Shown here: positions 762 to 55,989 of the stretch, piece by piece
Position numbering within the stretch: the stretch's first letter is position 1
How the letters are laid out: every line of letters starts with the position of its first letter
Virus record (IMG/VR): IMGVR_UViG_3300015195_000004
Coordinates: 1-64,000 of that record
DNA: 64,000 bases
Reading direction: 5' to 3' (one strand)
Origin: a virus
Notes under the pieces: generated by a model
Databases searched by the model: none
The model's input: the letters and a program-made list of their open reading frames with translations, nothing else
Told to the model about the DNA's origin: nothing
Position numbers and translations under genes: made by a program

Positions 762-790
762 TTGACACATCTAAAAATCTATGATAGGAT
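762..790 (+). promoter_or_regulatory. Sigma-70-like promoter, leaderless type
   Basis: TTGACA (762-767), a 17-base spacer and TAGGAT (785-790). The ATG at 797 lies 6 bases after the -10 box, at the expected transcription start, so the mRNA may be leaderless. The -10 context ATGATAGGAT recurs in the promoters at 42037 and 47310. Confidence 0.7.
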
Positions 791-796
791 ATGAAT

Positions 797-970
797 ATGG
801 AAGAACAGATGAAACAGTATGAGACATTCCTACAGGCTCAAGAAGAGCTTCTTACATCGGCACTAGCGGCTATTAAAGCACAAAAAGCTATGCTAGCAAT
901 AGGAAAATCCTATCTGCCACCCCTTAATGGTGCTTGCTGGCCCAGTAATTTGATAGGAAAGTTTGTCTAA
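797..970 (+). CDS. Small hypothetical protein, 57 aa
   Basis: This is a short helical protein, rich in Gln, Glu and Ala, with a Pro/Trp-containing tail (GACWPSN). I do not recognise it. An in-frame ATG two codons upstream (791) lies directly behind the -10 box, so 797, which falls on the predicted transcription start, is preferred. The stop abuts the ATG of the next gene with no gap, so the two are probably co-transcribed. Confidence 0.6.
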   Translation: MEEQMKQYETFLQAQEELLTSALAAIKAQKAMLAIGKSYLPPLNGACWPSNLIGKFV

Positions 971-1138
971 ATGAGAGCTTTACCAAGACAGATGTTTGCT
1001 GTGCAGAATGCACCTAAAAAAGACCCCAAACCTATTAACTATGATAGAGTAGGAATTTTGAAAGTTACTCGTCAACAAAAACGACATCTAGCTAGGATTA
1101 ATGCTAAGTTGGATGAAAGGGCTTATGGAAATGTCTAA
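971..1138 (+). CDS. Small basic hypothetical protein, 55 aa
   Basis: This basic protein has a Lys/Arg-rich second half (RQQKRHLARINAKL) that could bind nucleic acid, although no named domain is visible. It starts immediately after the previous stop and its own stop overlaps the next ATG by one base (TAATG). This is the tight packing of a translationally coupled phage operon. Confidence 0.6.
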   Translation: MRALPRQMFAVQNAPKKDPKPINYDRVGILKVTRQQKRHLARINAKLDERAYGNV

Positions 1139-1329
1139 TGGGTAGGTCAGGAGATAAAGATATAGAGATTAGACACGCCATAGAAAAATATGATACGGCG
1201 TACAAGTTATGTCAGTTTTATGTAGGACTTTTTGATAATAACTTATCTACTCCTGAGTATCAAACTTTGATTCTAGACAAACTAAGAGATTTTGAGTCAG
1301 ATAGCACATTAGCACACTATTTCTGGTAG
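1138..1329 (+). CDS. Hypothetical protein, 63 aa
   Basis: This small, mostly helical acidic protein has no motif that I recognise. It is coupled to the preceding gene by a one-base stop/start overlap and is the last gene of the small unit driven from 762. A strong hairpin follows at 1346-1373. Confidence 0.6.
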   Translation: MGRSGDKDIEIRHAIEKYDTAYKLCQFYVGLFDNNLSTPEYQTLILDKLRDFESDSTLAHYFW

Positions 1330-1345
1330 ACTAGACAAAAGAAAA

Positions 1346-1373
1346 GCCTCCCAGCCAATAAAGGCCAAGAGGC
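1346..1373 (+). other. Two-part hairpin before the 1389 gene
   Basis: GCCTC pairs with GAGGC and an inner GCC pairs with GGC around AATAAA, giving a symmetrical two-tier stem-loop. On the + strand no T-run follows, and the ribosome binding site of the next gene (AAGAAGGA) sits a few bases behind it. On the - strand it is followed by TTTTCTTTTG, so it would act as a terminator only for leftward transcripts. It may be an mRNA stability or translation element, or a block to antisense transcription. Confidence 0.45.
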
Positions 1374-1388
1374 AAGAAGGAATAATAT

Positions 1389-1604
1389 ATGAAGTTACCA
1401 TTTCAAGTATATCTAGGAATCCTAGTTCAGGCACTCCTAGGAACGGCATCATTCCGAGTAGGATCAAAAACAGTTACTTTAGTGCATGTTGCCGGAAACC
1501 CCGTCCATTTTACTAGTAGTCAAGCAATTGTTGCTGCTACAGAAGCATATGCGGGACTCACAGGTACTGCCCAAATCGGCAGCATCCAGATTAATATTCA
1601 GTGA
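1389..1604 (+). CDS. Hypothetical protein, 71 aa
   Basis: It starts behind a good ribosome binding site (AAGAAGGA). The sequence is rich in Ala, Thr, Gly and Val with a weakly hydrophobic N terminus, and it looks like a small beta-rich or exported protein. No domain is recognised. The HD-domain gene begins 4 bases after its stop, so both are probably on one transcript. Confidence 0.55.
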   Translation: MKLPFQVYLGILVQALLGTASFRVGSKTVTLVHVAGNPVHFTSSQAIVAATEAYAGLTGTAQIGSIQINIQ

Positions 1605-1608
1605 TATA

Positions 1609-2148
1609 ATGTCACAAGTAGGCGTAGCTAGGTTGATTGCAACAGTTGCCCATAAAGGTCAAAAACGGGCAGACGGCAAGACTGATTATATAACCCATCC
1701 ATTAAGAGTAGTAGAACTAGTTAATGAATGGAGCAAGTCTATTGAGTATAATAAAGATATGATTGCCGCCGCCTGGCTACACGATGTAGTCGAAGACACT
1801 AAAGTAACCTTACTGGACCTAGAAATTTGGGGAATAGAGAAACCTATTCTACTCTTAGTTGGACTCCTCACTAAATTTAAGGGCGGCCCAGCAGACAAAC
1901 ATTACTACGACAATATAAAGAATAACCTCGCAGCACTTATGATTAAATGCGCCGACAGGTGTAGTAATTTAGAAGATGCCATCAAGGAAGTTAAATCAAG
2001 TAGTAATATTCCCAGATGGGAGCGGTATTTAGATAAAACTAGAGCAGACTTGCTTCCTTTATTTGTACCTAGTAAACCACATTGTAACTACATACACCTC
2101 CTAACTCACCAATTAGCAGAAGCTATCAAAGAATCGAAAGGTAATTAA
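1609..2148 (+). CDS. RelA/SpoT-type HD-domain phosphohydrolase
   Basis: This 179-residue HD-superfamily protein resembles stand-alone (p)ppGpp hydrolases (MESH1-like) and the HD half of SpoT. Metal-binding signatures are in the expected order: His30 in THPLRVV, His58-Asp59 in WLHDVVEDT, and Asp116 in IKCADRCSN. There is no synthetase or regulatory domain. The family hydrolyses (p)ppGpp or related 3'-phosphorylated nucleotides, so the protein could damp the host stringent response, although that role is inference. The ATG at 1609 is preferred over an upstream in-frame ATG at 1486, which lies inside the previous gene. The next gene begins one base after its stop. Confidence 0.82.
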   Translation: MSQVGVARLIATVAHKGQKRADGKTDYITHPLRVVELVNEWSKSIEYNKDMIAAAWLHDVVEDTKVTLLDLEIWGIEKPILLLVGLLTKFKGGPADKHYYDNIKNNLAALMIKCADRCSNLEDAIKEVKSSSNIPRWERYLDKTRADLLPLFVPSKPHCNYIHLLTHQLAEAIKESKGN

Positions 2149-2149
2149 C

Positions 2150-2683
2150 TTGAACAAATTCACAATTATCCTAGTTGCATCCCTACTTACAGGCTGTGGA
2201 GGCGTCGTTGCGTCCAACCCACCCAATGAATACCTTATGAAGAATACAACACATGGATGTAAGAAGAAATGCCCTAGCCCAACACCCACCCCTACGGCAA
2301 TTCCAACAGCAACTCCTACTCCCGTCCCTACACCAACACCTGTTCCAACCCCCGTTCCTAGTCCTACACCAATAGTTGTTACTGTATCAAACACTACAGA
2401 CATCTTTGGTCAGAGTTGCCAAGAGATTCTAAGTGTGTCACAAGGGTATGCGTACAACCTCTACCTCACGTCTATGATATTGAACTCAGGAAACAGTGGA
2501 ACACTGACTATATGGACTGAAGCGACCTGCACGGCTCAGATGGTCGGAGGCCCCTACACACCAACTATTGGCGTACCATTAACTATGAATATTCCTATGG
2601 TAAACAACGCCATATTTGCACTCTATATTCCAACCCCATACTCTGATGCCTACTTTACAGTGACGGCAACTGGTCTGCAGTAG
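2150..2683 (+). CDS. Pro/Thr-rich lipoprotein
   Basis: This 177-residue protein has a lipoprotein signal (a hydrophobic stretch, then LLTGC with Cys16 as the lipid site), a run of about 13 Pro-Thr/Pro-Val repeats (residues 44-80), and a beta-rich C-terminal domain with two cysteines. Pro-Thr linkers typically span the cell wall or periplasm and present a domain away from the membrane. An outer-surface role such as superinfection exclusion is possible but unproven. The start is TTG, one base after the upstream stop. No ATG start is available before the signal sequence. Confidence 0.72.
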   Translation: MNKFTIILVASLLTGCGGVVASNPPNEYLMKNTTHGCKKKCPSPTPTPTAIPTATPTPVPTPTPVPTPVPSPTPIVVTVSNTTDIFGQSCQEILSVSQGYAYNLYLTSMILNSGNSGTLTIWTEATCTAQMVGGPYTPTIGVPLTMNIPMVNNAIFALYIPTPYSDAYFTVTATGLQ

Positions 2684-2688
2684 AGTAT

Positions 2689-2704
2689 ATTAAACCCGTT
2701 TAAT
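2689..2704. terminator. Weak bidirectional palindrome between convergent genes
   Basis: ATTAAAC-CC-GTTTAAT is a perfect AT-rich inverted repeat between the convergent stops of the lipoprotein and lysozyme genes. It could act as a weak terminator in either direction. There is no long T-run. Confidence 0.35.
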
Positions 2705-3397
2705 TAAGTCTAAGGGGACTTCTAAAATATCTCCATCAACTGGAGCAGAGGTCCCTATTACATGTTTATGGTCTGTGTTCTGCCACAGGCCTATTCTTTT
2801 TACTCCTTGAGGCATGTCAGGGTTCTCTTGGTTTGCATATTCAGCTATGTGGAAAAGGTGCCCAGAAAAGGCATCTGTACTCTTCATAATATCTCCCCAG
2901 AAACTATATCCTGTGTAGATAGTACATAATTTACCTTTTAGAGTAGCTTCTATTATTTGTAAGAACTGTGATAATCTATGAACTAAAACCCCAACATCAG
3001 TAACTCCGTCTTGTGATGCACCTTCTACATCAACCATAGGAACGAGTTGTCCTAGGTTCCCCTCAATAACAGATAGAAAGTTCTTAGACTGTTCTTCTGG
3101 AGTACTTGACCCCATGTGGAAGAAGTGATAGGGGCCGAATGGAATGCCTACAGATTTAGCTCCATCATGATACTCTCGAAACTTTGCGTCCTGGATAGTT
3201 CTACCTTCAGTAGCTTTAGCATATATAAATGCAGGCTTGGACGCGGATGAGCCCAGTTCAGCCCAGTTTATGTGACCTTGAGCCTCAGATATGTCTATCC
3301 CAAATAGTTTCTTTGGTTCTAATACTTTTGGTGCAGTCACTGGGGCAATAATTGGTGCAATAACCTCTACAGGCTTTGTCTCTAATTCTTCACTCAT
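2690..3397 (-). CDS. GH25 lysozyme (endolysin)
   Basis: This 235-residue endolysin would cut the beta-1,4 bonds of peptidoglycan at the end of infection. After a 30-residue Pro/Ala-rich linker, the GH25 barrel begins with LFGIDIS (Asp35). The catalytic DxE pair is in PMVDVEG (Asp123, Glu125), and YHFFH and a late LWQ/DGD segment complete the family pattern. No wall-binding domain follows. The ATG at 3397 has a good ribosome binding site (AGGAGA), whereas an upstream in-frame ATG at 3451 has none. It is the last gene of the leftward structural operon, the usual place for lysis. Confidence 0.93.
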   Translation of the reverse strand: MSEELETKPVEVIAPIIAPVTAPKVLEPKKLFGIDISEAQGHINWAELGSSASKPAFIYAKATEGRTIQDAKFREYHDGAKSVGIPFGPYHFFHMGSSTPEEQSKNFLSVIEGNLGQLVPMVDVEGASQDGVTDVGVLVHRLSQFLQIIEATLKGKLCTIYTGYSFWGDIMKSTDAFSGHLFHIAEYANQENPDMPQGVKRIGLWQNTDHKHVIGTSAPVDGDILEVPLDLIKRV

Positions 3398-3459
3398 TTT
3401 ATTTACTCTCCTAAATTGTTCTGGTGTTGTTCTAAACCTAAACATGCTCATAGGATATA

Positions 3460-3606
3460 TTAATCCCCTGTAACTGTAATTGTGGCATTATATTTTCTCC
3501 TCTTATCTACTTTTTCTTTTATTTTCTTAGTTAAAGCATGTACTTCTTCTGCTAATGCCTGCATCGCCGCAAGTTTATCTGGATTAGGAGGTTCGGGGCT
3601 ATTCAT
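3460..3606 (-). CDS. Small hypothetical protein, 48 aa
   Basis: This short protein has a Pro-rich start (MNSPEPPNPDK), a charged helix and a threonine-rich tail. The ribosome binding site AGGAGG is 8 bases before the ATG. It overlaps the end of the upstream frame by 8 bases and lies just before the lysozyme, in the lysis cassette. Function unknown. Confidence 0.6.
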   Translation of the reverse strand: MNSPEPPNPDKLAAMQALAEEVHALTKKIKEKVDKRRKYNATITVTGD

Positions 3607-3747
3607 CTTCAATAACCTCCTCAGTCTCTTCAGCCGATTCTAGATCGTCTGCTATTTCTTCTATATCTTCATGTAACTCATCCAAAGATTTTATGGTCTT
3701 TTTAGCCAAGGAAGTAAAAGGGCTATTAAAAAATGCACTGTACTCAC
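3599..3747 (-). CDS. Acidic small protein, probably made by -1 frameshift
   Basis: The frame ending here encodes a strongly acidic tail (TIKSLDELHEDIEEIADDLE and on to EDE) but has no in-frame ATG or GTG after the previous stop. A GTG at 3747, one base behind the upstream TAG and 5 bases after AAGG, opens the other frame (MSTVHFL). This frame runs directly into the heptamer T-TTT-TTA (3733-3727). A -1 slip there joins the acidic frame and gives a protein of about 49 residues. Without slipping, the product is a 17-residue hydrophobic peptide (HFLIALLLPWLKRP). A TTG start at about codon 16 of the acidic frame is the alternative. Confidence 0.45.
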
Positions 3748-11852: not shown

Positions 11853-11882
11853 TTGACATTCTCCTCTCTTCTGTGATACTAT
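11853..11882 (+). promoter_or_regulatory. Promoter of the ligase module, leaderless type
   Basis: TTGACA (11853-11858) is followed either by TACTAT after 18 bases, 6 bases before the ATG at 11889, or by GATACT after 16 bases. Both place transcription start at or next to the ATG. It lies in the start region of the leftward tail gene and drives a rightward module inside the structural operon. Confidence 0.62.
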
Positions 11883-11888
11883 GGCGAT

Positions 11889-12095
11889 ATGAAAAAGGCG
11901 TACTTAATTATGATGCATGATTGGTGTGGAGAATACTCTTCTCCTACTTCTGTAGTTCTATCTCTACATAATGCCGAAGAATTGCAAGAAGAGTATAACC
12001 TGTCTGCTGAACTTGATGCCAAAATTGACCATCCTAAAGATTGGCATGAATATTGCGATTATTATACAATCCAGGAAGTGCCTTTGTATGATTAA
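11889..12095 (+). CDS. Hypothetical protein, 68 aa
   Basis: This small acidic protein (MHDWCGEYSSPT near the start) is of unknown function. It is the first gene of a four-gene rightward module and overlaps the DNA ligase start by 8 bases. No ribosome binding site is visible and the ATG lies at the predicted transcription start, consistent with leaderless translation. Confidence 0.6.
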   Translation: MKKAYLIMMHDWCGEYSSPTSVVLSLHNAEELQEEYNLSAELDAKIDHPKDWHEYCDYYTIQEVPLYD

Positions 12096-23637: not shown

Positions 23638-24266
23638 AATTTAACTTCTTTAGCAATCTTATAAACAGATAATCTAAAGGTCTCAGTTTGAAAGCCCGAA
23701 TACATCCCCATCCGGGGGTAAGTCTTACTGGTTTGCCAGAACTGGGGGCCATCATCACCATAAGGTTTAAGTTTATAGTTATTGCCGAAAAGAGGAGATT
23801 GAGTAGCCTGAGAGCCATACTCGAACCAAGGGAATACTCCATACTCTGATGTATGAAGGATAGCTCCGTCTTTTTTATTATAGTTCTGCCATCCAAATGT
23901 ACTGCCTGATTCTAATGCCGCCAGATGCCCCAGAGATAGGCTCAGAGCACCAGGATTACTAGTCCAGGTAGTAGGAGACATAACAAGTTCTGATAACCAC
24001 TGACCGGGCTTCCTAATAAAGCTGATACGTTCTCCATTAGAGGAGATTACAGGATGTTCTCCCTCACCAGAAAAGACTCCGCCTTCATATCCCTGTATGT
24101 AATTATACTCTGTGGTGGGAGCAGGAGTACGGGAAGAAATATCTTTGAGGCATTCTACAGCAACTGATTCCCAATTACTTTCTAAAGCAGCTTTTAAATC
24201 CTCTACATACCTTGTATATCTTTGTTTGAAGCCTGAAGTATCAATACTGACTGAGGCACTTGCCAT
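23634..24266 (-). CDS. Head-tail joining/neck protein candidate, 210 aa
   Basis: It sits among the small head-tail connection genes upstream of the tail tube. It begins with SIDTSGFKQRYTRYVEDLKA and a helical segment in the manner of HK97 gp10-type proteins, then has a Trp/Tyr/Gly-rich middle and a C-terminal helix (FRLSVYKIAKEVKF). The ATG at 24266 follows GAGGAGA. An upstream in-frame start at 24338 would overlap the divergent promoter and is rejected. Confidence 0.6.
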   Translation of the reverse strand: MASASVSIDTSGFKQRYTRYVEDLKAALESNWESVAVECLKDISSRTPAPTTEYNYIQGYEGGVFSGEGEHPVISSNGERISFIRKPGQWLSELVMSPTTWTSNPGALSLSLGHLAALESGSTFGWQNYNKKDGAILHTSEYGVFPWFEYGSQATQSPLFGNNYKLKPYGDDGPQFWQTSKTYPRMGMYSGFQTETFRLSVYKIAKEVKF

Positions 24267-24288
24267 AATGTCTCCTCTGTGATATATT
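24260..24288 (+). promoter_or_regulatory. Promoter of the third rightward module, leaderless type
   Basis: TTGCCA, 17 bases, TATATT, then exactly 6 bases to the ATG at 24295. It overlaps the start of the leftward gene, so expression of the two may interfere. Confidence 0.6.
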
Positions 24289-24294
24289 AGATAC

Positions 24295-24528
24295 ATGAGT
24301 AAATATTTTGAATCTTCGGCAAAGTCTCTTATGACCAAACTCCTAGAGCCTCAACATCCCACAGACAACTATCTTGAAACTATAGAGAACCATCTTAAAC
24401 GAGTAGCTCTAGATGCAGTACTTGATAGTGAAGTAGAGGCTGAAGCAGCAGGTGATATTCCTGCCCGTAGGTGGATGCCTGATGCTTTTACCTCTTCACC
24501 TTGGGACTTAACACCAGAAGACTTTTAA
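24295..24528 (+). CDS. Hypothetical protein, 77 aa
   Basis: This acidic helical protein (LEPQHPTDNYLETIENHLKR, VEAEAAGDIPARRW) lies at the predicted transcription start with no ribosome binding site, so it is probably translated from a leaderless mRNA. It overlaps the next start by one base (TAATG). Confidence 0.6.
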   Translation: MSKYFESSAKSLMTKLLEPQHPTDNYLETIENHLKRVALDAVLDSEVEAEAAGDIPARRWMPDAFTSSPWDLTPEDF

Positions 24529-36412: not shown

Positions 36413-38080
36413 TTACTTGCCCGCTTTTCGTGGGGCTCTTGGTTGTGAAGAGGGGGATGTTCCTGGTTTCCCAGGATTACCACCCTTATCTTTAGCTTGT
36501 GTTGAACCTTGACTTGGCTCAAACAACGGCTTTGCTATTGTATTATTAAGTACTGTTGCATCAGGAGAAGTGTTGCCAAACTCGGCATGTTCCAACTTCT
36601 TCTGTTCCATTTCATACTCATAATCAAGATCACTTGTTTCCATAAGGGACTTAAGTGAGATAGCTCCCGCAGTAGAAAGTTCCCCAGCGTTCTGAAGCCA
36701 AATTGCTTCCTCGTGAAGGCTCTTTCTGTCGAAGGTTGGATAAGGAATATCACTAGGTTTAAATCCAGGTCTTCCTACTCCAGCACGTAGTCTATTATAT
36801 AAAGGATAGAATAGTTGTTCCTCTAGTAACATACGAATAGCATCTACTTCTTGTACTAGTAGCTTCATTTCTGCAATTGCTGCACCAAAAGTACCATTAC
36901 CTTCAGAATGCCACATAAAGGAAGGGAGATTCATTACCTCTTTGATTTCCTTCTCTGGTTGCTTGTACTTTTCAGTACCAAACACTTCCATAGGAGGCAC
37001 AAAGAAACGAATAGTAGTTGTAGGGTCGGCAAAGACTGTCTGTGAGTAATCAGGAGATAGGAAGATAGCTTCCAACTTCTGTAATCTTACTGAGTCTAAT
37101 GGGGTGTATGCCTTCGGATCAGTGTTCTTTGGATCACCTTCAGATATGATTGTTATCATATGTTTAATGTTCCAAGCAACTGCGAAGTCTCCAGCAGCTA
37201 ATAGTCTATAGCGTTGTAGGGCATCAAATGCCGCCTGAAGAGGCACACCATCAAGAGTGTTAATGGCTCTATTATATGCAGCATAACGGTTCTCTACTAC
37301 AGTATATGATCCATCCATAAGAGGGATAGTAGCAGAAGAGAGATTCCCTTTAGCAATAGCCTTCTTTATCTCTTCAATCCAGTATGGTGGCATTGAATCA
37401 TATTGACGCTTATTAGAGGGATTTGTTTTACCTTCTGGGTCCTTCACAGCATCTATCATTCTACTATCAATCTTTAGATATAGCTTCTGTTTACCTAAAA
37501 CCTCTTCGTAGTGGCAGGATAATGGATTAAGGACCTGAAGAAATTGAATTGCTCCGCCGTCTTCACCACCCCAATAAATAGGGGCCATACCAACAGTGCA
37601 GAGACTCCACACGATATTACGTAACTTGGTCTTGAGCAATAACTTACGAGCATAGTCATCATAAAAGTCTTTTGCAGATACTTTATGTGTTTTATGTTCA
37701 AAATCTTTACAGATAAAATCTGTTTTAACTTTAGCTGCCTTTGATACGAAGGAATTCTCTAGTGCATAACGCATAGATAACTGTATCATTGCAGTAGGAT
37801 TGCGAGGAATGTTTAAATCAGCTACAGTGTGCCGTTTTGAGAACCGATCATTAATGTTAGTATTGCCTACTGGTACTGATGAAGTAGTGAACCCTAGAAG
37901 TTTAATAACTTCCATTTCTTGAGCATCGTCCCACATAGGGTTGTTTCTACCTGTCATCCAGGAACCAAAGGCCTTAGCTGTTGATGTTAGCTCTTGTTGA
38001 GTAGCGGGCACTAGTTGACCAGAAGGTAGGATAATAGAAGGAGTTAGAGGTGCTTGAATTAATTTTTTACGAGCAGCCAT
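36413..38080 (-). CDS. Portal protein, 555 aa
   Basis: The gene directly downstream of the large terminase, with the right length for a portal. The clip/stem region contains WHSEGNGTFGAAIAEMKLLVQ followed by long helices (VDAIRMLLEEQLFYPLYNRL), as in the portal stem and wing. The C-terminal 60 residues are a Gly/Pro/Lys-rich flexible tail. The protein would form the dodecameric DNA gate at one capsid vertex. Start behind GAAGGAG. Confidence 0.8.
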   Translation of the reverse strand: MAARKKLIQAPLTPSIILPSGQLVPATQQELTSTAKAFGSWMTGRNNPMWDDAQEMEVIKLLGFTTSSVPVGNTNINDRFSKRHTVADLNIPRNPTAMIQLSMRYALENSFVSKAAKVKTDFICKDFEHKTHKVSAKDFYDDYARKLLLKTKLRNIVWSLCTVGMAPIYWGGEDGGAIQFLQVLNPLSCHYEEVLGKQKLYLKIDSRMIDAVKDPEGKTNPSNKRQYDSMPPYWIEEIKKAIAKGNLSSATIPLMDGSYTVVENRYAAYNRAINTLDGVPLQAAFDALQRYRLLAAGDFAVAWNIKHMITIISEGDPKNTDPKAYTPLDSVRLQKLEAIFLSPDYSQTVFADPTTTIRFFVPPMEVFGTEKYKQPEKEIKEVMNLPSFMWHSEGNGTFGAAIAEMKLLVQEVDAIRMLLEEQLFYPLYNRLRAGVGRPGFKPSDIPYPTFDRKSLHEEAIWLQNAGELSTAGAISLKSLMETSDLDYEYEMEQKKLEHAEFGNTSPDATVLNNTIAKPLFEPSQGSTQAKDKGGNPGKPGTSPSSQPRAPRKAGK

Positions 38081-38104: not shown

Positions 38105-39925
38105 TTACCAAGCTTTATATATTTCCTCAGGTTTGATTTCTATCATCCCACGGAACTTATAATTTTCATCCATTATAGTAGGAACTGCCATAGCATCAAC
38201 CATTTGAGGGGCTTTACTGCCCCATCTATGTTGAATCCTATATAGAATATATCCGTAAGACAGTGCTGAAGCAGCATCATGTTCTGCGTTCTTCCATATA
38301 TATTTAGGCATTTTATTCGTAGTAGTTTTAACTATCTCTTGAGTGCCGGTTTCAGCATTCTTAACTGTCTTCATAGCAAGATACTTTAACTGCATTACTG
38401 AGTCTTTTATCCTGTCATGAATAACTGCTGTTGAATTCTCACCATCTCCACCGTCTTCTTGATAGACAGCAGGGATTAAGATTGGACATTCTTCTCTAGA
38501 AAGAATCTTACGTAATCCATCATACATTAGATGAATCATAATATCTTCTGAGTGAATATTCTCTCCACCTCTAGAACGATCATTAGCAAATCCTGCCCGT
38601 ACCATCTCATCAGATGCACGATTTAGGATTAACTTACGCTGTCCAGAAATAGTTCTATATTCATCATGTTGCAGAATTGGGGTATCAATTTCATGAATAG
38701 TCCCGTCTCTTAAAGAAAGAGTCGGCTTCATCAGAGAATCAGTTACTTGTAGTCCCCCGCCGCCCTTATCCATTACAATCCACTCAGGATTGAAGGACTT
38801 GTTCAGCTTGTGAATCTCCCAAGCGGCATCATCAGTACTTAAACCTTTATTCCAGTAGGTGTAAACCAATCCCATTTTTTCATTAGGGAGGAATTTCCAT
38901 ACGTGAATAACAAAGTAGTCTCCGTGAAGTTGCGTAGCAACGTCAATAGAGAACCCATAGGTAAAGCCCTTTTCAGCCTTATATTCAATATTAATCTCAT
39001 TTGACGACATACGTTCAATTAGATCGCCAGGAAGGAATTGACCAGAACGGCCAACCCACTTGTTGTATAAAACCTGCTGCTTCTCTTCTTCAGACGCACC
39101 ATCAAGTTGCTGTTCTAAAATATCCCAGTCAACAGTATAGCCTTCTTTTTCGAGGTCATTAACATTAATGTCAATAATAATATACTTACGTTTATAGTTA
39201 TCGTCCTGTTGAGCCTTAATGTCTTCACCCTGTATATTCTTAATGAAGTTCTGTAGAACTGTATAGGCAAAGCAGTCTTGATACTCAGCAGAGGTCATTA
39301 CTACCAACTTAGGGCCATATGAACCTTGACCTTTGTGACCCTTTAGGAACGAAAGAACGTGGTCTTTATACATACTGCGTTCAATAGCAAAGAATTCGTC
39401 AATTACTAGAACATCTGCCCGCTCGCCTCGGATTCCTTCACCTTTTCCCATAGGGAGGGCCACATGCTGACTGCCATTCTTTAGCTTCAACCGGGACAAC
39501 ATCATTCCGCGAATAACTTGTCCATCTACTTCATTAGTTAAATCTAATGGTAGGTTTTCGTCTTGATTTTCTAGAATAGTGTTTACTGCATAGTTCCAAG
39601 GATGGAGTGCCTGCCTATAAGTAGGGGCAGCATAAACGATCTTAATTTTTCTTGTCATTGATTCGGCTGCTAGTGCTCTGCCGACCGAAAAGGACTTCGC
39701 GGCTCCTCTTATTGCTTGAATAAAGATGAACTTATGATCCCTAATGGCTTCTCTTATGTTATGCTGAGTGGGGAAGAGGCTAAAAGAGTTGGGGAAGAAC
39801 ATTGCATCAGCAAGATAAGAATTTTCTCGTAAATCAGAAATAAGACCAGGAACAGTAAAAGTGTCTGGATTTTCAACAGGAAATTTATAAGGTTTCGGGC
39901 ACCAAATCTTCTGTGGGTTCTCCAT
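38105..39925 (-). CDS. terL: Terminase large subunit, 606 aa
   Basis: This is the ATPase and nuclease that packages DNA. The ATPase shows a variant Walker A AIRGAAKSFS (71-80), Walker B VLVIDEF (172-178, Asp176-Glu177) and a motif III-like VVMTSAEY (208-215). The RNase H-type nuclease begins with FSIDVA (Asp328), continues with WIVMDKGGG (about 375) and ends near DAMAVP (about 583). The N terminus overlaps the small-subunit candidate by 41 bases, and translation is probably coupled. It heads the structural operon. Confidence 0.92.
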   Translation of the reverse strand: MENPQKIWCPKPYKFPVENPDTFTVPGLISDLRENSYLADAMFFPNSFSLFPTQHNIREAIRDHKFIFIQAIRGAAKSFSVGRALAAESMTRKIKIVYAAPTYRQALHPWNYAVNTILENQDENLPLDLTNEVDGQVIRGMMLSRLKLKNGSQHVALPMGKGEGIRGERADVLVIDEFFAIERSMYKDHVLSFLKGHKGQGSYGPKLVVMTSAEYQDCFAYTVLQNFIKNIQGEDIKAQQDDNYKRKYIIIDINVNDLEKEGYTVDWDILEQQLDGASEEEKQQVLYNKWVGRSGQFLPGDLIERMSSNEINIEYKAEKGFTYGFSIDVATQLHGDYFVIHVWKFLPNEKMGLVYTYWNKGLSTDDAAWEIHKLNKSFNPEWIVMDKGGGGLQVTDSLMKPTLSLRDGTIHEIDTPILQHDEYRTISGQRKLILNRASDEMVRAGFANDRSRGGENIHSEDIMIHLMYDGLRKILSREECPILIPAVYQEDGGDGENSTAVIHDRIKDSVMQLKYLAMKTVKNAETGTQEIVKTTTNKMPKYIWKNAEHDAASALSYGYILYRIQHRWGSKAPQMVDAMAVPTIMDENYKFRGMIEIKPEEIYKAW

Positions 39926-41868: not shown

Positions 41869-42029
41869 TAAATATGTCCATCTTGCTGTAGGCCTGTGCG
41901 GGTAGGTATAGATTTGCTATCCAAAAATGGTGCCACCATATCAAGAGGCTCCATATCTTTACCTTTGCAGGCATGGGCCAAATCATCTACAAAAGAATTG
42001 CAGGGAATGCAGAAAATATCTGATCTCAT
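41868..42029 (-). CDS. Hypothetical protein, 53 aa
   Basis: MRSDIFCIPCNSFVDDLAHA begins a small protein with C-x2-C and one further Cys. The ATG at 42029 lies 7 bases from a clear -10 box, so the mRNA is probably leaderless. A longer in-frame start at 42065 falls within the promoter and is rejected. Confidence 0.6.
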   Translation of the reverse strand: MRSDIFCIPCNSFVDDLAHACKGKDMEPLDMVAPFLDSKSIPTRTGLQQDGHI

Positions 42030-42036
42030 TTGTCTT

Positions 42037-42065
42037 ATCCTATCATACTTAAAACTATTTGTCAA
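42037..42065 (-). promoter_or_regulatory. Promoter heading the HNH/terminase unit, leaderless type
   Basis: TTGACA, 17 bases, TAGGAT, 7 bases to ATG, with the ATGATAGGAT context shared with 785 and 47310. It may drive the HNH, endonuclease VII and terminase genes, and so be the start of the structural operon. Confidence 0.72.
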
Positions 42066-46901: not shown

Positions 46902-47303
46902 TTATCTAACGCAGTTACTACAAGTAGATGTCAGTTTAACGATGATGTCGTGAGCTATAGCGACTTGTGGGTAAAATACTGCCACCCAGTTCCATACATA
47001 CAAAAGGTTCCCTAAAGCTATACAATATCCTATGACAGGGACGAAATACAGCATAATCGCCGGAGTTGGGCCCCCATCAGAATAAAACATAGTATGTTTT
47101 AGTGGATTTAAGCATACATACAACGCTAATGAAGCAAGAATCAGGAAGAGAATGCCGACTATAATACCTTCCAGTCCCATAACTCGCTCTACACCTAATA
47201 CTAGGTCTATGGTCTGGGGGCCATATTGATGGGCTGCTACGCTGACAGTCTTGGTAATTTCAGAGCCGATTTTCTCTAACTCTGAGAAATATTCATTATT
47301 CAT
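46902..47303 (-). CDS. Membrane protein, 133 aa
   Basis: Three hydrophobic segments are visible (GIIVGILFLILASLALYVCL, ILYFVPVIGYCIALGNLLYV, and one weaker segment around WVAVFYP). A C-terminal Cys pair (CSNC) follows. The ATG is 6 bases from the -10 box: probable leaderless start. No homologous family named. Confidence 0.62.
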   Translation of the reverse strand: MNNEYFSELEKIGSEITKTVSVAAHQYGPQTIDLVLGVERVMGLEGIIVGILFLILASLALYVCLNPLKHTMFYSDGGPTPAIMLYFVPVIGYCIALGNLLYVWNWVAVFYPQVAIAHDIIVKLTSTCSNCVR

Positions 47304-47309
47304 GTACTT

Positions 47310-47338
47310 ATCCTATCATAGTATTTAAACTAAGTCAA
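47310..47338 (-). promoter_or_regulatory. Promoter, leaderless type
   Basis: TTGACT, 17 bases, TAGGAT, 6 bases, ATG (47303). ATGATAGGAT context as at 785 and 42037. It can drive the nucleotide-metabolism unit down to 44789. Confidence 0.75.
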
Positions 47339-47341: not shown

Positions 47342-47695
47342 TTATTCTTGTGTCCAGAACATTTTCTGAATGCCTGCTTGCTTAAGGCGCATTTCGCAAC
47401 GGGCACACGGTTTGTGGGTAGCATATAAAATACTACCATCAACACTAATGCCGAATTTTGCGGCAGTCAACAGGGCATTTTCTGAATCATGAATAGTTCT
47501 TTGGCAGTGATTAGACTCCACAAGACATCCTACTTCATCACACTCAGGAGCACCTGACTGACTTCCGTTATAACCAGTAGCGAGAATCCTATTATCCCGT
47601 ACTAAAACACATCCTACTCGTTTTCTAGGACATGTAGCTCTAGTAGAAATTACTTGAGCCAAGTTAAGGAAATAAGTTTCCCATGAAGGTTTCAT
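47342..47695 (-). CDS. dCMP deaminase-family protein with altered active site, 117 aa
   Basis: The family converts dCMP to dUMP for thymidylate synthesis. Zinc ligands His69 (RTIHDSENAL) and Cys97/Cys100 (KPCARC), and the N-terminal GCVLVRDNRILATGYNGS segment, are family-typical. The usual H-A-E-x-N-A signature reads H-D-S-E-N-A: the catalytic glutamate position is Ser71, with Glu72 next to it. Activity may be lost, shifted, or regulated. It overlaps the RlmN-like gene by 4 bases. Confidence 0.85.
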   Translation of the reverse strand: MKPSWETYFLNLAQVISTRATCPRKRVGCVLVRDNRILATGYNGSQSGAPECDEVGCLVESNHCQRTIHDSENALLTAAKFGISVDGSILYATHKPCARCEMRLKQAGIQKMFWTQE

Positions 47696-48567
47696 TTTCC
47701 TACGAACATCCCGCAGGACGCCTTAACATCGAATCCGACCTTACCTATTATTTTAACATCTGACCCAGGCAGAGAATCTTTAAGGAACTGAGCATTTCGT
47801 TCAATAATACACACTTCAGGTTCTTTACCTTGCAGAGTTGAATAAGGATTATATCTCACCACATTAAAATCAACTCGTAGATTAAAGGCCTTTATTGCTT
47901 CTACAATACTAGTCAAAGTTTCTATAGAATCATTCTCGCCCTCAATAAATGCCCAGTGCAACTTAATAATCTTGTGGGACTCGTCTTGATAGTCCTTCAG
48001 TTTCTCTAGGGCTAGAAGGGGGTCTAATGCCTTAGGCAACCACCTCTTACGGAATGTGGGGTCCATACTATAGAGGGAATAGTAAATGTCTGGTGTGTAG
48101 TCCTGGAAAATCTCTGAGAGGTTCTTATCCTTCATTTCAAGAGGCATAATAGTTGAATACTTAAACTTAGGAATTACATTATAATCTCTAGCAATGTCTC
48201 CAAGGGCTCTGCATAGCCTACTTCCTCCCTGGTTATCAATTACACGAGGGTTACAGAATACTTCTCCGCGTGACATAAAATTAAAATGCATAGACTTAGC
48301 AGGTTCTTTAGTTACATAATGCTCGCACACTTGCCAAGCCTGTTCCTGGTAATCCTCAATATCAAGGAACTTATACTTCGTTTGTCCTGTTTGAGTAAGG
48401 TGACACATTCTGCAGGCTTTATCACAGCCAGTCATACTAGACAGATAGCAGATAAAGTACTCATCAGTACGTCTTACATACCTGGCCTCAATCTTACCAG
48501 GAAAGTCGCCTTCTGTTACAAAGTTAACTGAGGCGTCTTCTTGACTATGAAATATTGTATTTGACAT
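47692..48567 (-). CDS. RlmN-like radical SAM protein (adenine C2-methyltransferase family), 291 aa
   Basis: RlmN/Cfr enzymes methylate adenine C2/C8 of 23S rRNA and tRNA. The iron-sulphur motif C-x3-C-x2-C is CDKACRMC (48, 52, 55). Other RlmN landmarks are FMSRGE, the FKYSTI strand, the RKRWLP region, FNVVRYNP and a C-terminal VKASCGMF (Cys285), the position of the methyl-carrier cysteine. Cys40 may be its partner. It lacks the usual N-terminal accessory domain (normal length about 370-380), so substrate contact should differ. Phage RlmN-like proteins are known in metagenomes, but their target is not settled. Confidence 0.85.
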   Translation of the reverse strand: MSNTIFHSQEDASVNFVTEGDFPGKIEARYVRRTDEYFICYLSSMTGCDKACRMCHLTQTGQTKYKFLDIEDYQEQAWQVCEHYVTKEPAKSMHFNFMSRGEVFCNPRVIDNQGGSRLCRALGDIARDYNVIPKFKYSTIMPLEMKDKNLSEIFQDYTPDIYYSLYSMDPTFRKRWLPKALDPLLALEKLKDYQDESHKIIKLHWAFIEGENDSIETLTSIVEAIKAFNLRVDFNVVRYNPYSTLQGKEPEVCIIERNAQFLKDSLPGSDVKIIGKVGFDVKASCGMFVGK

Positions 48568-51794: not shown

Positions 51795-51983
51795 TTAATC
51801 TAGGATAACCCATTCAGGATTAGAATTAACTACAGTGACCCCACGGGTAGTGGTAATGTCTGGGGTAGACCGTTTATCATCATAAAGGAAGACTTTAGTC
51901 TCAGGCGGCAAATTAAGCCCCTGAAGAGTTGTAATAAGGTCTCCTATAGAAAAGGTAGCTTGTTCGGTTGTCGGCTTATACAT
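51795..51983 (-). CDS. Small phage protein of the xDLI type, 62 aa
   Basis: SIGDLITTLQGLNLPPETKV and VFLYDD mark it as a relative in style of the 51089 and 57880 products, with an N-terminal extension. The ATG lies exactly 6 bases after a -10 box and has no ribosome binding site: leaderless start. Confidence 0.62.
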   Translation of the reverse strand: MYKPTTEQATFSIGDLITTLQGLNLPPETKVFLYDDKRSTPDITTTRGVTVVNSNPEWVILD

Positions 51984-51989
51984 AAATTA

Positions 51990-52018
51990 ACTATACAACA
52001 CTTTCTATATAATGTCAA
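51990..52018 (-). promoter_or_regulatory. Near-consensus promoter, leaderless type
   Basis: TTGACA, 17 bases, TATAGT, 6 bases, ATG (51983). One of the clearest examples of the leaderless arrangement. Confidence 0.8.
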
Positions 52019-52320: not shown

Positions 52321-52518
52321 TTAATTGTTGATTAAAAAATTTCCGTGATAGTCAAAATTGAATGTATAAAGCTTCAAAGGTTCCTTGCCCACACATACCC
52401 CAGGCACCCCATTACCAATCATGATTAATGATGGAACCTCTACATACTCAATATTTCTTTTATTTAGTTCCTGTATAAGGAGGTACTTGTGTGATAACTT
52501 AGTTGGCATATTAATCAT
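52321..52518 (-). CDS. Hypothetical protein, 65 aa
   Basis: A helical start (KLSHKYLLIQELNKRNIEYV) and beta-like end (LYTFNFDYHGNFLIN). Start could be codon 1 or the second Met at codon 4. It is the last gene of the unit that begins at 53029. Confidence 0.55.
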   Translation of the reverse strand: MINMPTKLSHKYLLIQELNKRNIEYVEVPSLIMIGNGVPGVCVGKEPLKLYTFNFDYHGNFLINN

Positions 52519-52526
52519 ATCTTTCT

Positions 52527-52841: not shown

Positions 52842-53029
52842 TAGGTATATTCTCCATTAGCTTGTGCTTCTTCTGTTAGTGTATCTAGTATTAACTCTCC
52901 AAGATGCTGGTTTAGTTTAACTAATGCAGAATCCAAAGGCTTACCCTCTTTATATAGAAAGTTAAAGCCGGGCAGTTTATTCAATAAACTAACTAAAGAT
53001 TGGCACTCTTCTCTTGTTAAATTAAGCAT
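52841..53029 (-). CDS. Hypothetical protein, 62 aa
   Basis: A helical protein (NLTREECQSLVSLLNKLPGF, KLNQHLGELILDTLTEEAQ). The ATG is 6 bases after a consensus -10 box, with no ribosome binding site: leaderless. It starts a three-gene unit. Confidence 0.62.
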   Translation of the reverse strand: MLNLTREECQSLVSLLNKLPGFNFLYKEGKPLDSALVKLNQHLGELILDTLTEEAQANGEYT

Positions 53030-53035
53030 ACTACT

Positions 53036-53064
53036 ATTATACCTCTTATATCTTTATATGTCAA
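53036..53064 (-). promoter_or_regulatory. Consensus promoter, leaderless type
   Basis: TTGACA, 17 bases, TATAAT, 6 bases, ATG (53029). Perfect consensus boxes. Confidence 0.83.
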
Positions 53065-53113
53065 GCTGCAGTTTATATAGAAAGGGCCAGAGATTGCCTC
53101 CAGCCCCGGTTCC

Positions 53114-53269
53114 CTATAGAATTGCCTGTGGTCCTTCCCTAGTAACCGGAGGATGCCATCGTGCCCATGCCTTCCTATAGGCTTCAGCTTCCTCACTAGT
53201 ACTTCCATTAGGCTCAAAGAACTGGACTGATTCGGGCGTAGGTGCTTCGGGAGCAGCCTGCTTAGACAT
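53114..53269 (-). CDS. Small hypothetical protein, 51 aa
   Basis: MSKQAAPEAPTPESVQFFEP opens a Pro/Glu-rich, Trp-containing protein (AYRKAWARWHPPVTREGP). AGGACCAGGG gives a ribosome binding site 6 bases before the ATG. Another 66-codon frame overlaps it (53017-53217) but covers the neighbouring promoter and reads as noise. Function unknown. Confidence 0.6.
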   Translation of the reverse strand: MSKQAAPEAPTPESVQFFEPNGSTSEEAEAYRKAWARWHPPVTREGPQAIL

Positions 53270-53313
53270 CCCTGGTCCTGGCTTTACCCAAGTGGGGACG
53301 GCAGTCTCATTGT

Positions 53314-53646
53314 TTAAAATAGAGTAGTTACTTTATTAGGATCATTAAATGTTTTTTCTAGTGAAGATAATCTAGTATATTCTATATCGTCGGCATCATA
53401 TACGAGGTCCCTAAGGGGTTGTGCTAGTTCTGCAGGTAATGATTTAATACTTAATGGTACAAGTTCCTGTATAGTTAGTGCCCGGAACCTTAATTTCGTT
53501 CGGCATCGGCCTGACATTTCATACTCAGGGGTAAATTGAATATTTAATTCATACTTCCCCGAATCCGCCTGAGCGATAATCATAGATGTAGCGATGTGTA
53601 GGTCTACAACCTTGTAATAGGTAGTCTTCTGTAAAATGGGTCTCAT
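53314..53646 (-). CDS. Hypothetical protein, 110 aa
   Basis: A beta-rich N-terminal half (YYKVVDLHIATSMIIAQADS, YELNIQFTPEYEM) and a helical, acidic C-terminal half. GAAAGAAGAAGAATATG gives an acceptable start region. Own promoter 65 bases upstream. Function unknown. Confidence 0.6.
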   Translation of the reverse strand: MRPILQKTTYYKVVDLHIATSMIIAQADSGKYELNIQFTPEYEMSGRCRTKLRFRALTIQELVPLSIKSLPAELAQPLRDLVYDADDIEYTRLSSLEKTFNDPNKVTTLF

Positions 53647-53710
53647 ATTCTTCTTCTTTCATAGGTAGAGATTTTGAGACTGAGGCATTACATACCCAAG
53701 CTCAGTCTCT

Positions 53711-53739
53711 ACTATAACACAAAGAATACTACTTGTCAA
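53711..53739 (-). promoter_or_regulatory. Near-consensus promoter for the 53314 gene
   Basis: TTGACA, 17 bases, TATAGT. The -35 box touches the last codons of the 53736 gene. Leader of about 58 bases. Confidence 0.78.
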
Positions 53740-53963
53740 CTAAAATCAGAGTGCCCGCTATGATAAGGTCTCCAGGTTTGTGGCCCTAATGTGCGGCAAA
53801 GTATCATTAGTACCCTACCATTTACCTGTCCCCATTGGGCTAGGAATTCAACATCCGGGGCACTAAATACATAAGTTCTAAGATTCTTATCAATAATACA
53901 TTGTAATAAGGTACGGACTAGACCTGGGAATGCTTTTAAAGCAGTAAGGTATAGTTTATTCAT
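53736..53963 (-). CDS. Hypothetical protein, 75 aa
   Basis: A hydrophobic-helical protein (LYLTALKAFPGLVRTLLQCI, GRVLMILCRTLGPQTW). No ribosome binding site is obvious; upstream lies the 53988 gene with a 24-base gap. Function unknown. Confidence 0.5.
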   Translation of the reverse strand: MNKLYLTALKAFPGLVRTLLQCIIDKNLRTYVFSAPDVEFLAQWGQVNGRVLMILCRTLGPQTWRPYHSGHSDFS

Positions 53964-53987
53964 TATTTAAACTAAGGCCTTTAATAT

Positions 53988-54218
53988 TTAACTTACTAGA
54001 GAATAGGAGGCAGGATTTATGATAAGACCTAGCTCCCCATTGCAAAAGTGGCACGTTATATCCACCTGCTTTAAGGGTTTAGATTTAAATACTTTAGGCG
54101 GATTATAATACTCTACCCCGTTTAATATAATCCTAGCATCTTGTGTATTAGGATTAATGTCCCCATATAATATCCCTGGGTGGAGGTTCCCTGTGGGGGT
54201 TAAATCATCTGCGTACAT
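53988..54218 (-). CDS. Hypothetical protein, 76 aa
   Basis: A beta-rich protein with one C-x2-C pair (ITCHFCNGELGLII). It follows the 54222 membrane gene by 3 bases, hence the same unit. Function unknown. Confidence 0.55.
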   Translation of the reverse strand: MYADDLTPTGNLHPGILYGDINPNTQDARIILNGVEYYNPPKVFKSKPLKQVDITCHFCNGELGLIINPASYSLVS

Positions 54219-54221
54219 ACC

Positions 54222-54422
54222 CTACCAACTAAGCCCCACAAGAACCTTTAAGGTAAAGACAGTAAAGGCGGTAAGTACTACACCTGATATAAGTTTATGA
54301 CAAGCACATTGTCCTAATATTAAACCTAAGAAACTGCCCAGATATGCAGCTACATAGATAGCTATGCCCAAAAGGCCTAGAATTACTCCATGAACTGTAT
54401 GAGGATTAAATAAGTTATTCAT
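54222..54422 (-). CDS. Small membrane protein, 66 aa
   Basis: Two hydrophobic segments (VILGLLGIAIYVAAYLGSFL and SGVVLTAFTVFTLKVLVG) with a short loop containing Cys. The ATG lies 6 bases after the -10 box: leaderless. Possibly a superinfection or holin-like protein; no proof. Confidence 0.62.
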   Translation of the reverse strand: MNNLFNPHTVHGVILGLLGIAIYVAAYLGSFLGLILGQCACHKLISGVVLTAFTVFTLKVLVGLSW

Positions 54423-54428
54423 AGTCCT

Positions 54429-54457
54429 ATTCTATCATATTCCTACTAACCTGTCAA
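54429..54457 (-). promoter_or_regulatory. Promoter, leaderless type
   Basis: TTGACA, 17 bases, TAGAAT, 6 bases, ATG (54422). The ATGATAGAAT context resembles the ATGATAGGAT group. Confidence 0.78.
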
Positions 54458-54510
54458 TATGTACAAAACTAATAAGAACTATGCCCCACCCCTCCCTACT
54501 TATATACAAA

Positions 54511-55014
54511 TTAAGCACTTCTTTTCTCAGTAGGAGCAGCAACATAGCCCGGCATATGTATTAGCCTAGCTTCGTGAACCGCCTTGGCGGCATCCTCTAG
54601 ATTCTGAAAATTACCTAAATTGATTTTCTTCCTAGCCTTCCTACCACCTATCCATATATTGGTCCTCCAGTAACCTTCCTGGCCCGGTCGCCGAGGCTTT
54701 GACCACCAGACTCCACTTACCCCCGAAGTGTTTGTAGGATGAAGGAACCTATAGTTTTGCCCGTTCTCAGTCCTAGTTACGGTTCGTAGGTTAACCCGTC
54801 TATTATCTAGAGTGTTGCCGTTTATATGATCCACTTCTAGCCCTATGCACTTATCACCCATAATTACTCTATGTAAAGATTCTTTAGGATAACATTTAAA
54901 TACATAGCTGGTATGCTGGTTTTGGGTATATAAATACCAATTATATTTATCTAATAAGTATTCATCCTCTGGATCAATAAGTACCCCTAGGGTGATTAAT
55001 TCGTGTTTAGTCAT
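54511..55014 (-). CDS. HNH homing endonuclease with AP2 domain, 167 aa
   Basis: The HNH core is LEVDHINGNTLDNRRVNLR followed by TVTRTENGQNYR (residues about 60-90), the standard free-standing phage HNH. An AP2/ERF-like DNA-binding domain follows (SGVSGVWWSKPRRPGQEGYW, INLGNFQNLEDAAKAVHEAR). Such genes spread by cutting homologues that lack them. The ATG is 7 bases from a -10 box and has no ribosome binding site. No intron halves are evident around it, so it is free-standing. Confidence 0.92.
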   Translation of the reverse strand: MTKHELITLGVLIDPEDEYLLDKYNWYLYTQNQHTSYVFKCYPKESLHRVIMGDKCIGLEVDHINGNTLDNRRVNLRTVTRTENGQNYRFLHPTNTSGVSGVWWSKPRRPGQEGYWRTNIWIGGRKARKKINLGNFQNLEDAAKAVHEARLIHMPGYVAAPTEKRSA

Positions 55015-55021
55015 TATGAAT

Positions 55022-55050
55022 ACTATATCAAGTTAGCAGACAAGAGTCAA
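55022..55050 (-). promoter_or_regulatory. Promoter of the homing endonuclease, leaderless type
   Basis: TTGACT, 17 bases, TATAGT, 7 bases, ATG (55014). Confidence 0.72.
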
Positions 55051-55235
55051 ATAAAACGAGAGCTTAGTGGGCAGTTGGTGTGTCCCGTTTCGAGAATCAA
55101 TTTTGATTTGATCTCGCAACTACCCCCAGGGAGGGGGGGGGGTACCCCTCTAGCGGTCTAAGGTTCCTGCTCCTGCTTCATACGGATGAAGGTCGAAAGA
55201 CCAGAACCACCGGTATATACTTGCTGCTATTTTAC
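55051..55235. other. Intergenic stretch with G10 tract and three-way-junction RNA-like fold
   Basis: No gene fits. A run of ten G (55133-55142) continues into GGGGTACCCC, a perfect palindrome. Further on, GGTTC...GAACC (55162-55208) encloses two perfect hairpins: CTTCAT-ACGG-ATGAAG and GGTC-GAAA-GACC (GNRA-type tetraloop on the + strand). The stretch separates the homing endonuclease unit from the right-hand small genes. Confidence 0.45.
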
Positions 55236-55355
55236 TCATAATGCCGCCTTTATTGCCTCACGTACTTCCCGCAATAGATTAGCCATCGGGAGGGAAGAGA
55301 CGTAGTAGTGGTTAGGATGCTCTAGGAGGTTGATTAGGTCCTGTGAGAGTCTCAT
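55236..55355 (-). CDS. Small protein, paralogue of the 58158 product, 39 aa
   Basis: MRLSQDLINLLEHPNHYYVS aligns with MILSADILELIQNPSHYVIH of the 58158 product, so the two are duplicates. AAGGAACTACC precedes the ATG. A longer reading frame upstream (to 55559) contains the neighbour and the promoter and is rejected. Function unknown. Confidence 0.6.
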   Translation of the reverse strand: MRLSQDLINLLEHPNHYYVSSLPMANLLREVREAIKAAL

Positions 55356-55384
55356 GGTAGTTCCTTGCCTTGTAGGGCAGTTCT

Positions 55385-55486
55385 CTAGAAGGGGAGTGCT
55401 GCTACTGCCGTCTGTGCGGCGTGCGCTAGGAAGAGGACTGCTATGACTGCGGAGGCTATGAGGGCGGCGGTTACTGCTTGGAACAT
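55385..55486 (-). CDS. Small Ala-rich membrane or exported peptide, 33 aa
   Basis: VTAALIASAVIAVLFLAHAA spans a membrane or serves as a signal. AAGGAGAG is 8 bases before the ATG; 16 bases at this start (CATATCGTCTCTCCTT) are identical to the start of the 57262 gene. Codons are GC-rich compared with the rest of the window, possible recent acquisition. Confidence 0.55.
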   Translation of the reverse strand: MFQAVTAALIASAVIAVLFLAHAAQTAVAALPF

Positions 55487-55527
55487 ATCGTCTCTCCTTA
55501 GTTCTGAGTGAGTCTTTCTGTATCTCT

Positions 55528-55556
55528 ATACTACCATATGGAGGGTACGATGTCAA
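55528..55556 (-). promoter_or_regulatory. Promoter of the 55486/55355 pair
   Basis: TTGACA, 17 bases, TAGTAT, then a leader of about 35 bases with AAGGAGAG. Confidence 0.72.
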
Positions 55557-55766
55557 CAATAGAGTATGTGTATACTCTTATCTTTACGTTCCATACAATC
55601 GGGAATCGTTTATGTTATTCTGTTTAATGCTTACTTGTACAGTGTAGTAAGGACAGTAGTCTCATGCGTGTGAGTGCTTGCATGCAGGAAAGTGTAGTTA
55701 ATTACCGAGAAGAATCTGCTAAGAAGAGAATGGTTATAAGAATAATATATCTTTCTTCTACCTAAC
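55557..55766. other. Gene-free stretch with AGAGTA/TACTCT inverted repeat
   Basis: The only clear structure is AGAGTA-TGTGTA-TACTCT (55561-55578), directly behind the -35 box of the 55528 promoter; it combines both orientations of the motif found in the other right-hand promoters. The rest shows no gene and no obvious repeat. Confidence 0.45.
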
Positions 55767-55791
55767 AAAAAAGAAAGGGCCTATTTCCCTT
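55767..55791 (-). terminator. Rho-independent terminator
   Basis: On the - strand AAGGG pairs with CCCTT around AAATAGG, followed by TCTTTTTT. The stop codon of the 55781 gene lies in the loop. Confidence 0.72.
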
Positions 55792-55954
55792 CCTCTTGAA
55801 ATTCAGGCCAATCACCATACCGTATATCCTGTAGGTCCTCTCTTCCCTTTTGACATTCCTTACCTATAGGTTGTATCACGCTGCCAATATAAATGCCCTT
55901 GGAGGCTCTCTTCATCCTCTTATCACATATAATGCAGGTTAGGTAGTTAATCAT
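55781..55954 (-). CDS. Hypothetical protein with C-x2-C, 57 aa
   Basis: MINYLTCIICDKRMKRASKG opens with a single zinc-knuckle half and a basic stretch; another Cys is at 34. The ATG lies 6 bases after a -10 box: leaderless. A terminator overlaps its 3' end, so it is a monocistronic unit. Confidence 0.62.
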   Translation of the reverse strand: MINYLTCIICDKRMKRASKGIYIGSVIQPIGKECQKGREDLQDIRYGDWPEFQEEGK

Positions 55955-55960
55955 AGTAGT

Positions 55961-55989
55961 ATTATCTCATAATGCCGACAACTTGTCAA
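55961..55989 (-). promoter_or_regulatory. Promoter, leaderless type
   Basis: TTGACA, 17 bases, GATAAT, 6 bases, ATG (55954). An AATGCCG heptamer sits in the spacer. Confidence 0.72.

Follow-up and report, generated by a model that had tools for sequence, protein, structure and literature searches.

An excess of promoters ending 6 to 7 nucleotides before ATG points to leaderless operon-head genes in an uncultivated phage

The window examined here covers bases 1-64000 of the 88,709-base viral contig IMGVR_UViG_3300015195_000004 (an 88.7-kb phage contig of ~40% GC). It carries ten genes whose ATG lies immediately behind a promoter, an arrangement that would give rise to leaderless messenger RNAs (mRNAs), i.e. 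transcripts beginning at the start codon. The sites fit the sigma70 extended -10 form (TTGACA-like -35, spacer of 17 +/- 1 nucleotides (nt), TATAAT-like -10 with TGn). The ten starts had been listed in an earlier note made from the sequence, and reading the sites directly places the end of the promoter 6 or 7 nt before the ATG at all of them, the distance being 7 nt at 42029 and 55014 and 6 nt elsewhere. The promoter type described in that note applies in general, apart from a TTGCCA -35 at 24295, a GATAAT -10 at 55954 and an 18-nt spacer at 11889. Its suggested further member at 59829 is weak, with a TTGCAA -35, an 18-nt spacer and a score below the threshold used here. Sites and surrounding genes are compiled in Table 1.

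The whole contig was scanned using one fixed consensus scheme (TTGACA, 16-18 nt spacer, TATAAT, bonus for TG), in which promoters scoring ≥10.5 were regarded as strong. This gave 41 strong promoters in comparison to 9.5 in Markov shuffles. An ATG follows the -10 after 6 nt in nine cases and after 7 nt in three, whereas both distances together amount to 0.3 in the shuffles; the peak at 6-7 nt thus exceeds chance. Requiring an open reading frame (ORF) of ≥30 amino acids (aa) leaves these counts unchanged, and the other 58 distances between 0 and 59 nt then sum up to 27 (~0.5 each). Hence 12 of the 41 strong promoters are of the leaderless type. Ten of them are in the window; the other two, 67039+ and 84256+, are located further along the contig. 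A TG precedes the -10 in ten of the twelve, the exceptions being 51995 and 53041.

A strict pattern, TTGACN{17,19}TANNNTN{6,7}ATG, leads to the same picture: it matches the contig 11 times, whereas Markov shuffles (order 1, 3 and 5) average 0.22-0.48 and the reversed pattern, used as control, gives 0. One match, 35292+, is located antisense within a gene and is probably due to chance. The slot 6-7 nt after the -10 is occupied by ATG in 11 cases and by GTG, TTG or CTG in none. A test for leaderless genes without a -35 showed no excess of TANNNT 6-7 nt upstream of the remaining 133 called genes. There is hardly any doubt that the arrangement of promoter and ATG is real.

Table 1. Candidate leaderless sites, contrasting promoters and further features of the contig (promoters are given as -35, spacer length, -10, distance in nt, start codon)
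Feature	Coordinates	Strand	Description
Promoter + ATG	762..799	+	TTGACA-17-TAGGAT-6-ATG
Putative leaderless gene, 57 aa	797..970	+	head of + cluster to ~2683
Promoter + ATG	11853..11891	+	TTGACA-18-TACTAT-6-ATG
Putative leaderless gene, 68 aa	11889..12095	+	head of + strand island amid - strand structural genes
Promoter + ATG	24260..24297	+	TTGCCA-17-TATATT-6-ATG
Putative leaderless gene, 77 aa	24295..24528	+	head of + strand island
Promoter + ATG	42027..42065	-	TTGACA-17-TAGGAT-7-ATG
Putative leaderless gene, 53 aa	41868..42029	-	first in tight series reaching terminase and portal-like gene
Promoter + ATG	47301..47338	-	TTGACT-17-TAGGAT-6-ATG
Putative leaderless gene, 133 aa, hydrophobic	46902..47303	-	head of series (~8 genes) to ~44789
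Promoter + ATG	51981..52018	-	TTGACA-17-TATAGT-6-ATG
Putative leaderless gene, 62 aa	51795..51983	-	head of four-gene series to 51089
Promoter + ATG	53027..53064	-	TTGACA-17-TATAAT-6-ATG
Putative leaderless gene, 62 aa	52841..53029	-	head of series to 52321
Promoter + ATG	54420..54457	-	TTGACA-17-TAGAAT-6-ATG
Putative leaderless gene, 66 aa, hydrophobic	54222..54422	-	head of series to 53736
Promoter + ATG	55012..55050	-	TTGACT-17-TATAGT-7-ATG
Putative leaderless gene, 167 aa	54511..55014	-	HNH endonuclease family; seemingly single
Promoter + ATG	55952..55989	-	TTGACA-17-GATAAT-6-ATG
Putative leaderless gene, 57 aa	55781..55954	-	seemingly single
Doubtful member	59827..59865	-	TTGCAA-18-TATAGT-6-ATG, before lipoprotein-like ORF
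Lipoprotein-like ORF, 46 aa	59689-59829	-	lipobox LAVSAC
Contrasting leadered promoter	59608..59636	-	TTGACT-17-TATTAT, AAAGGAG site, ATG 18 nt after -10
Terminase	38105-39925	-
Portal-like gene	36413-38080	-	named by position and size, without family match
Capsid-like gene		-	named by position and size, without family match
Tape measure protein, endolysin		-
Integrase	62707-63528
Primase-helicase, RecA, DNA polymerase A genes		+	beyond the window

In nine of the twelve ORFs an in-frame stop lies 6-21 nt upstream of the ATG and in a tenth (53029) at 27 nt, so that for these ten an earlier start is not available; at 42029 and 67039 the in-frame stop is further upstream. The gene at 797 has one in-frame ATG 6 nt upstream, between its in-frame stop and the proposed start. 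In-frame coding scores are positive for all twelve. The median energy of pairing with the 16S tail is -2.25 kcal/mol in the leaderless set, compared to -4.8 kcal/mol for the other genes and -1.1 kcal/mol for random ATGs, the Shine-Dalgarno pairing being weaker than in the other genes (p=0.005).

Most of these genes are the first of a tight same-strand series. The series starting at 42029 reaches the terminase and the portal-like gene, the one starting at 67039 the primase-helicase. Among the 44 genes that follow in such series, 22 reach -4 kcal/mol or better in Shine-Dalgarno pairing at their listed start and 26 do so when nearby starts are admitted; followers that overlap or abut the preceding gene may be translationally coupled. 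Nine of the ten leaderless-type genes in the window gave no convincing family match, the HNH endonuclease being the exception. An RlmN-like radical SAM protein (47692-48567, - strand), which shares ~47% identity with proteins from Pseudomonas, Brevundimonas and Caulobacter jumbo phages, is encoded directly upstream of the 47342-47695 gene and the gene at 47303.

Besides the 12 leaderless-type promoters, 11 strong promoters were classified as leadered, being followed at 16-44 nt by a start that has a good Shine-Dalgarno site. By sequence, two initiation modes coexist, as the earlier note had claimed. Between 56.3 and 66 kilobases (kb) all seven classified promoters are leadered, while the remaining contig holds 12 leaderless and four leadered ones, a split which was counted after the map had been seen. 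A -10 of TATTAT occurs in five leadered promoters and in no leaderless one. This family (-10 boxes at 57160-, 58784-, 59613-, 60262- and, outside the window, 65926-) is limited to ~56-66 kb and has a common TATACTCTTATGTG...AAAGGAG context with a Shine-Dalgarno start 18-35 nt on; TATACTCTTATGTGTTATTATATATTAAAGGAG is common to several leadered promoters. Given the segregation on the map, it is plausible that the two classes are used at different times of infection. Three further strong promoters have an ATG 9-10 nt after the -10 (30355- in the window, 70506+ and 79726+ in the contig), implying leaders of 2-3 nt. Near-perfect promoters with no ATG ORF of ≥35 aa starting within 150 nt were seen at 44762-, 55533- and 59033- in the window and at 66016+ in the contig. 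Small RNAs are possible there; the window holds neither Rfam matches nor transfer RNAs.

The context around the -10 is partly shared. The earlier note had proposed it for a subset of sites, and indeed TATGATAGRATA is common to four sites of the window, although ATGATAGGAT is located at 781-790 and not at 785. All four TATGATAGRAT promoters of the contig are leaderless, whereas the other eight leaderless sites have no TATGATAGGAT. In IMG/VR, TTGAC-N-TATGATAGNAT-N6/7-ATG is found in at least 119 stretches, and in homologous genes among the matches listed the -35, the -10, the distance and the ATG are kept while the letters of the spacer vary. Without requiring an ATG, 111 distinct TATGATAGNAT promoters show ten ATGs at 6 nt versus ~3 per other distance. 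Most of them are leadered or without class, and further ATG peaks occur at 20-36 nt. This profile marks the motif as a general extended -10, of which leaderless placement is a minority use among viruses. The shared context is thus no leaderless signal per se.

The strict pattern was also applied to other phages. In Thermus phage phiYS40, the positive control, it yields ten matches and the reversed pattern two; both of the matches that were looked up are located at annotated starts. T4, lambda, P-SSM2, Syn9, CcrColossus, Listeria P70, SPbeta, N4, phiKZ and others do not rise above background. Pelagibacter phage HTVC008M (147 kb) has five matches versus one in the control, and one of the five coincides exactly with the start annotated for gp113. 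The densest case seen is IMGVR_UViG_3300029985_000077 (40,879 bases), in which 25 matches stand against none in the control and 0.1-0.3 in the shuffles. Its matches lie at 19-41 kb, and of its 39 strong promoters 20, about half, are of the leaderless type. Its terminase alone is similar to that of the window phage (21% identity).

No annotated phage closely matches the contig, and no close relative was found by megablast of 20 kb, by the terminase or by a single DNA polymerase protein in IMG/VR. Polymerase alignment gave one syntenic relative, IMGVR_UViG_3300037418_000775 (92.6 kb, 56% GC), whose main structural and replication proteins are for the most part 40-54% identical; portal alignment added no further relative and no prophage in GTDB genomes. 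In tblastn using the terminase, portal-like and primase-helicase proteins against a collection that includes phiYS40, this phage was not among the matches listed, no direct comparison being made.

Leaderless mRNAs are the best reading of the 6-7 nt placement and in our view a highly probable one. It is drawn from the exact spacing, the use of ATG only, the weak Shine-Dalgarno pairing, the phiYS40 control and the parallels in other phages. We infer that the host RNA polymerase would read these sigma70-type promoters, which have a -35, a spacer of 17-18 nt and in most cases an extended TGn, and would begin transcription at the A of the ATG or no more than one base upstream of it; a start 7-8 nt after the -10 places this A at +1. 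The first gene of each transcript would then be leaderless and the ribosome would recognise its 5'-terminal AUG. Most downstream genes would depend on their own Shine-Dalgarno sites or on coupling, and the separate leadered promoters near the genome centre would provide ordinary Shine-Dalgarno starts. Start on a 5'-terminal AUG is established for lambda cI, the classic phage leaderless mRNA, which begins at the AUG. The same is established for leaderless genes of Deinococcus (PMC12340547).

Comparison with known systems shows both likeness and difference. The middle and late mRNAs of phiYS40 are reported to be leaderless (PMC3594737), and like this phage the window phage combines many leaderless promoters with leadered ones. 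However, the host of phiYS40 is a thermophile whose phylum makes common use of leaderless mRNA, and in phiYS40 the leaderless class is linked to the middle/late period. The window phage mostly has complete -35 boxes, and its sites stand at the front of gene clusters. In Deinococcus-Thermus a "-10 motif adjacent to ORF" has been described (TANNNT 6-7 bp before the ORF, the distance being tested experimentally in Deinococcus; PMC12340547). It concerns bacterial genes, often without a -35, while in the window phage the peak is found only among -35-bearing promoters. Lambda, which is mentioned in PMC3160421, has one leaderless gene and 0 pattern matches in its genome, in contrast to about a dozen promoters here. 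HTVC008M gp113 and its homologues in marine contigs have a site of the same kind, TTGAC-spacer-TATGATAGGAT-7-ATG at an annotated start. There the sites are mostly isolated, whereas the window phage has a genome-wide set. For bacteria, leaderless genes are described in single and operon-proximal positions, varying by phylum (PMC3160421, PMC4535381).

Several points weigh against leaderless transcripts. The reading is taken from the arrangement of the DNA, and the host may differ from what it presupposes in its sigma factor and in its tolerance of leaderless mRNA. Were the RNA to begin further upstream, four of the twelve sites would carry a Shine-Dalgarno-like sequence. The genes at 42029, 47303, 54422, 55954 and 84256 reach modest coding scores. 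Moreover, the syntenic relative has 0 ATG matches to the pattern and two GTG ones, and homologues of the leaderless genes were not found in it, so that the alignment gives no check of the starts. Hence the trait is not conserved over this distance, and the genes carrying the putative leaderless starts are by this comparison fast-changing accessory genes.

The most probable of the alternatives, though still unlikely, assigns a second role to the -10: TAGGAT would also act as Shine-Dalgarno site (AGGA 7-8 nt before the ATG) on read-through RNA from upstream promoters, so that one and the same ATG would have no leader on the RNA from its own promoter but would have one on the read-through RNA. 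AGGA indeed lies within the -10 at 797, 42029 and 47303, and GAGG overlaps the -10 at 53029. For these four sites the absence of a ribosome binding site, as stated in the earlier note, is therefore overstated, the weaker pairing on average notwithstanding. Among TATGATAGNAT promoters of viral contigs the G of TAGGAT is also commoner at leaderless sites (34/69 versus 25/110 of the others). By sequence cluster, however, this signal is weak (15/34 versus 18/75, p=0.04), most sites here and nearly all 25 in IMGVR_UViG_3300029985_000077 have no AGGA, and a terminator-like hairpin (53107-53083) is located directly upstream of the 53029 promoter.

It is very improbable that the true starts are codons further downstream, each behind a short leader and a Shine-Dalgarno site of its own. 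At 11889 another in-frame ATG, preceded by AAAGG, lies 21 nt downstream, but most genes are without such a site and the ATG-only slot at exactly 6-7 nt would be left without explanation. Just as improbable is that TATGATAGGAT represents an operator for a phage regulator instead of a promoter element. The TATGATAGRATA shared by four window sites would agree with an operator; yet TATGATAGGAT fits the extended -10 form TATGnTAnnnT, is always ~17 nt from a -35 here and recurs in many phages of no relation to one another, where the genes behind it are mostly leadered, and eight leaderless sites do without it. Gene packing or chance, by which short intergenic gaps push promoters near start codons with no leaderless start, has next to no probability: the genome is dense and AT-rich DNA is rich in promoter-like matches (a loose threshold gives 54 here and 48 in shuffles), but packing predicts no sharp peak, 0-5 and 8-17 nt are at background, and with the reversed pattern at 0 and GTG and TTG absent from the slot the distance profile refutes it.

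As to the host, the lipoprotein-like ORF in Table 1 is possibly an outer-membrane spanin and hence a hint of a Gram-negative host. A pattern scan of genome contigs, in which mainly Clostridia and Saccharibacteria were listed, says little on the host, with only 35% of the sites heading ORFs of ≥50 aa. Separately, the pattern occurs 28 times versus 0 in the control in the Sutterella seckii genome (2.8 megabases, Mb) and 17 times versus 0 in a Saccharibacteria genome (0.7 Mb), which suggests that these genomes carry leaderless genes.

Taken together, a trick known from a few phages is, judging by these signatures, used systematically here, at most operon heads, and denser still in a second environmental phage. 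We tentatively propose, as a possibility rather than a likelihood, that leaderless operon-head starts are a main expression mode in a set of unrelated uncultivated phages, in which promoter and ATG would form a self-contained ~38-bp module switching on accessory gene clusters, the -10 sometimes doubling as Shine-Dalgarno site. Systematic leaderless expression in phages is documented in very few cases, mainly phiYS40, and it may be asked whether such phages move their hosts towards 70S or low-IF3 initiation, a change that has been proposed for phiYS40. Since it needs no RNA data, a sequence signature could be used to explore how common leaderless expression is in uncultivated phages and which hosts allow it, and would correct start-codon calls that presuppose a Shine-Dalgarno site.

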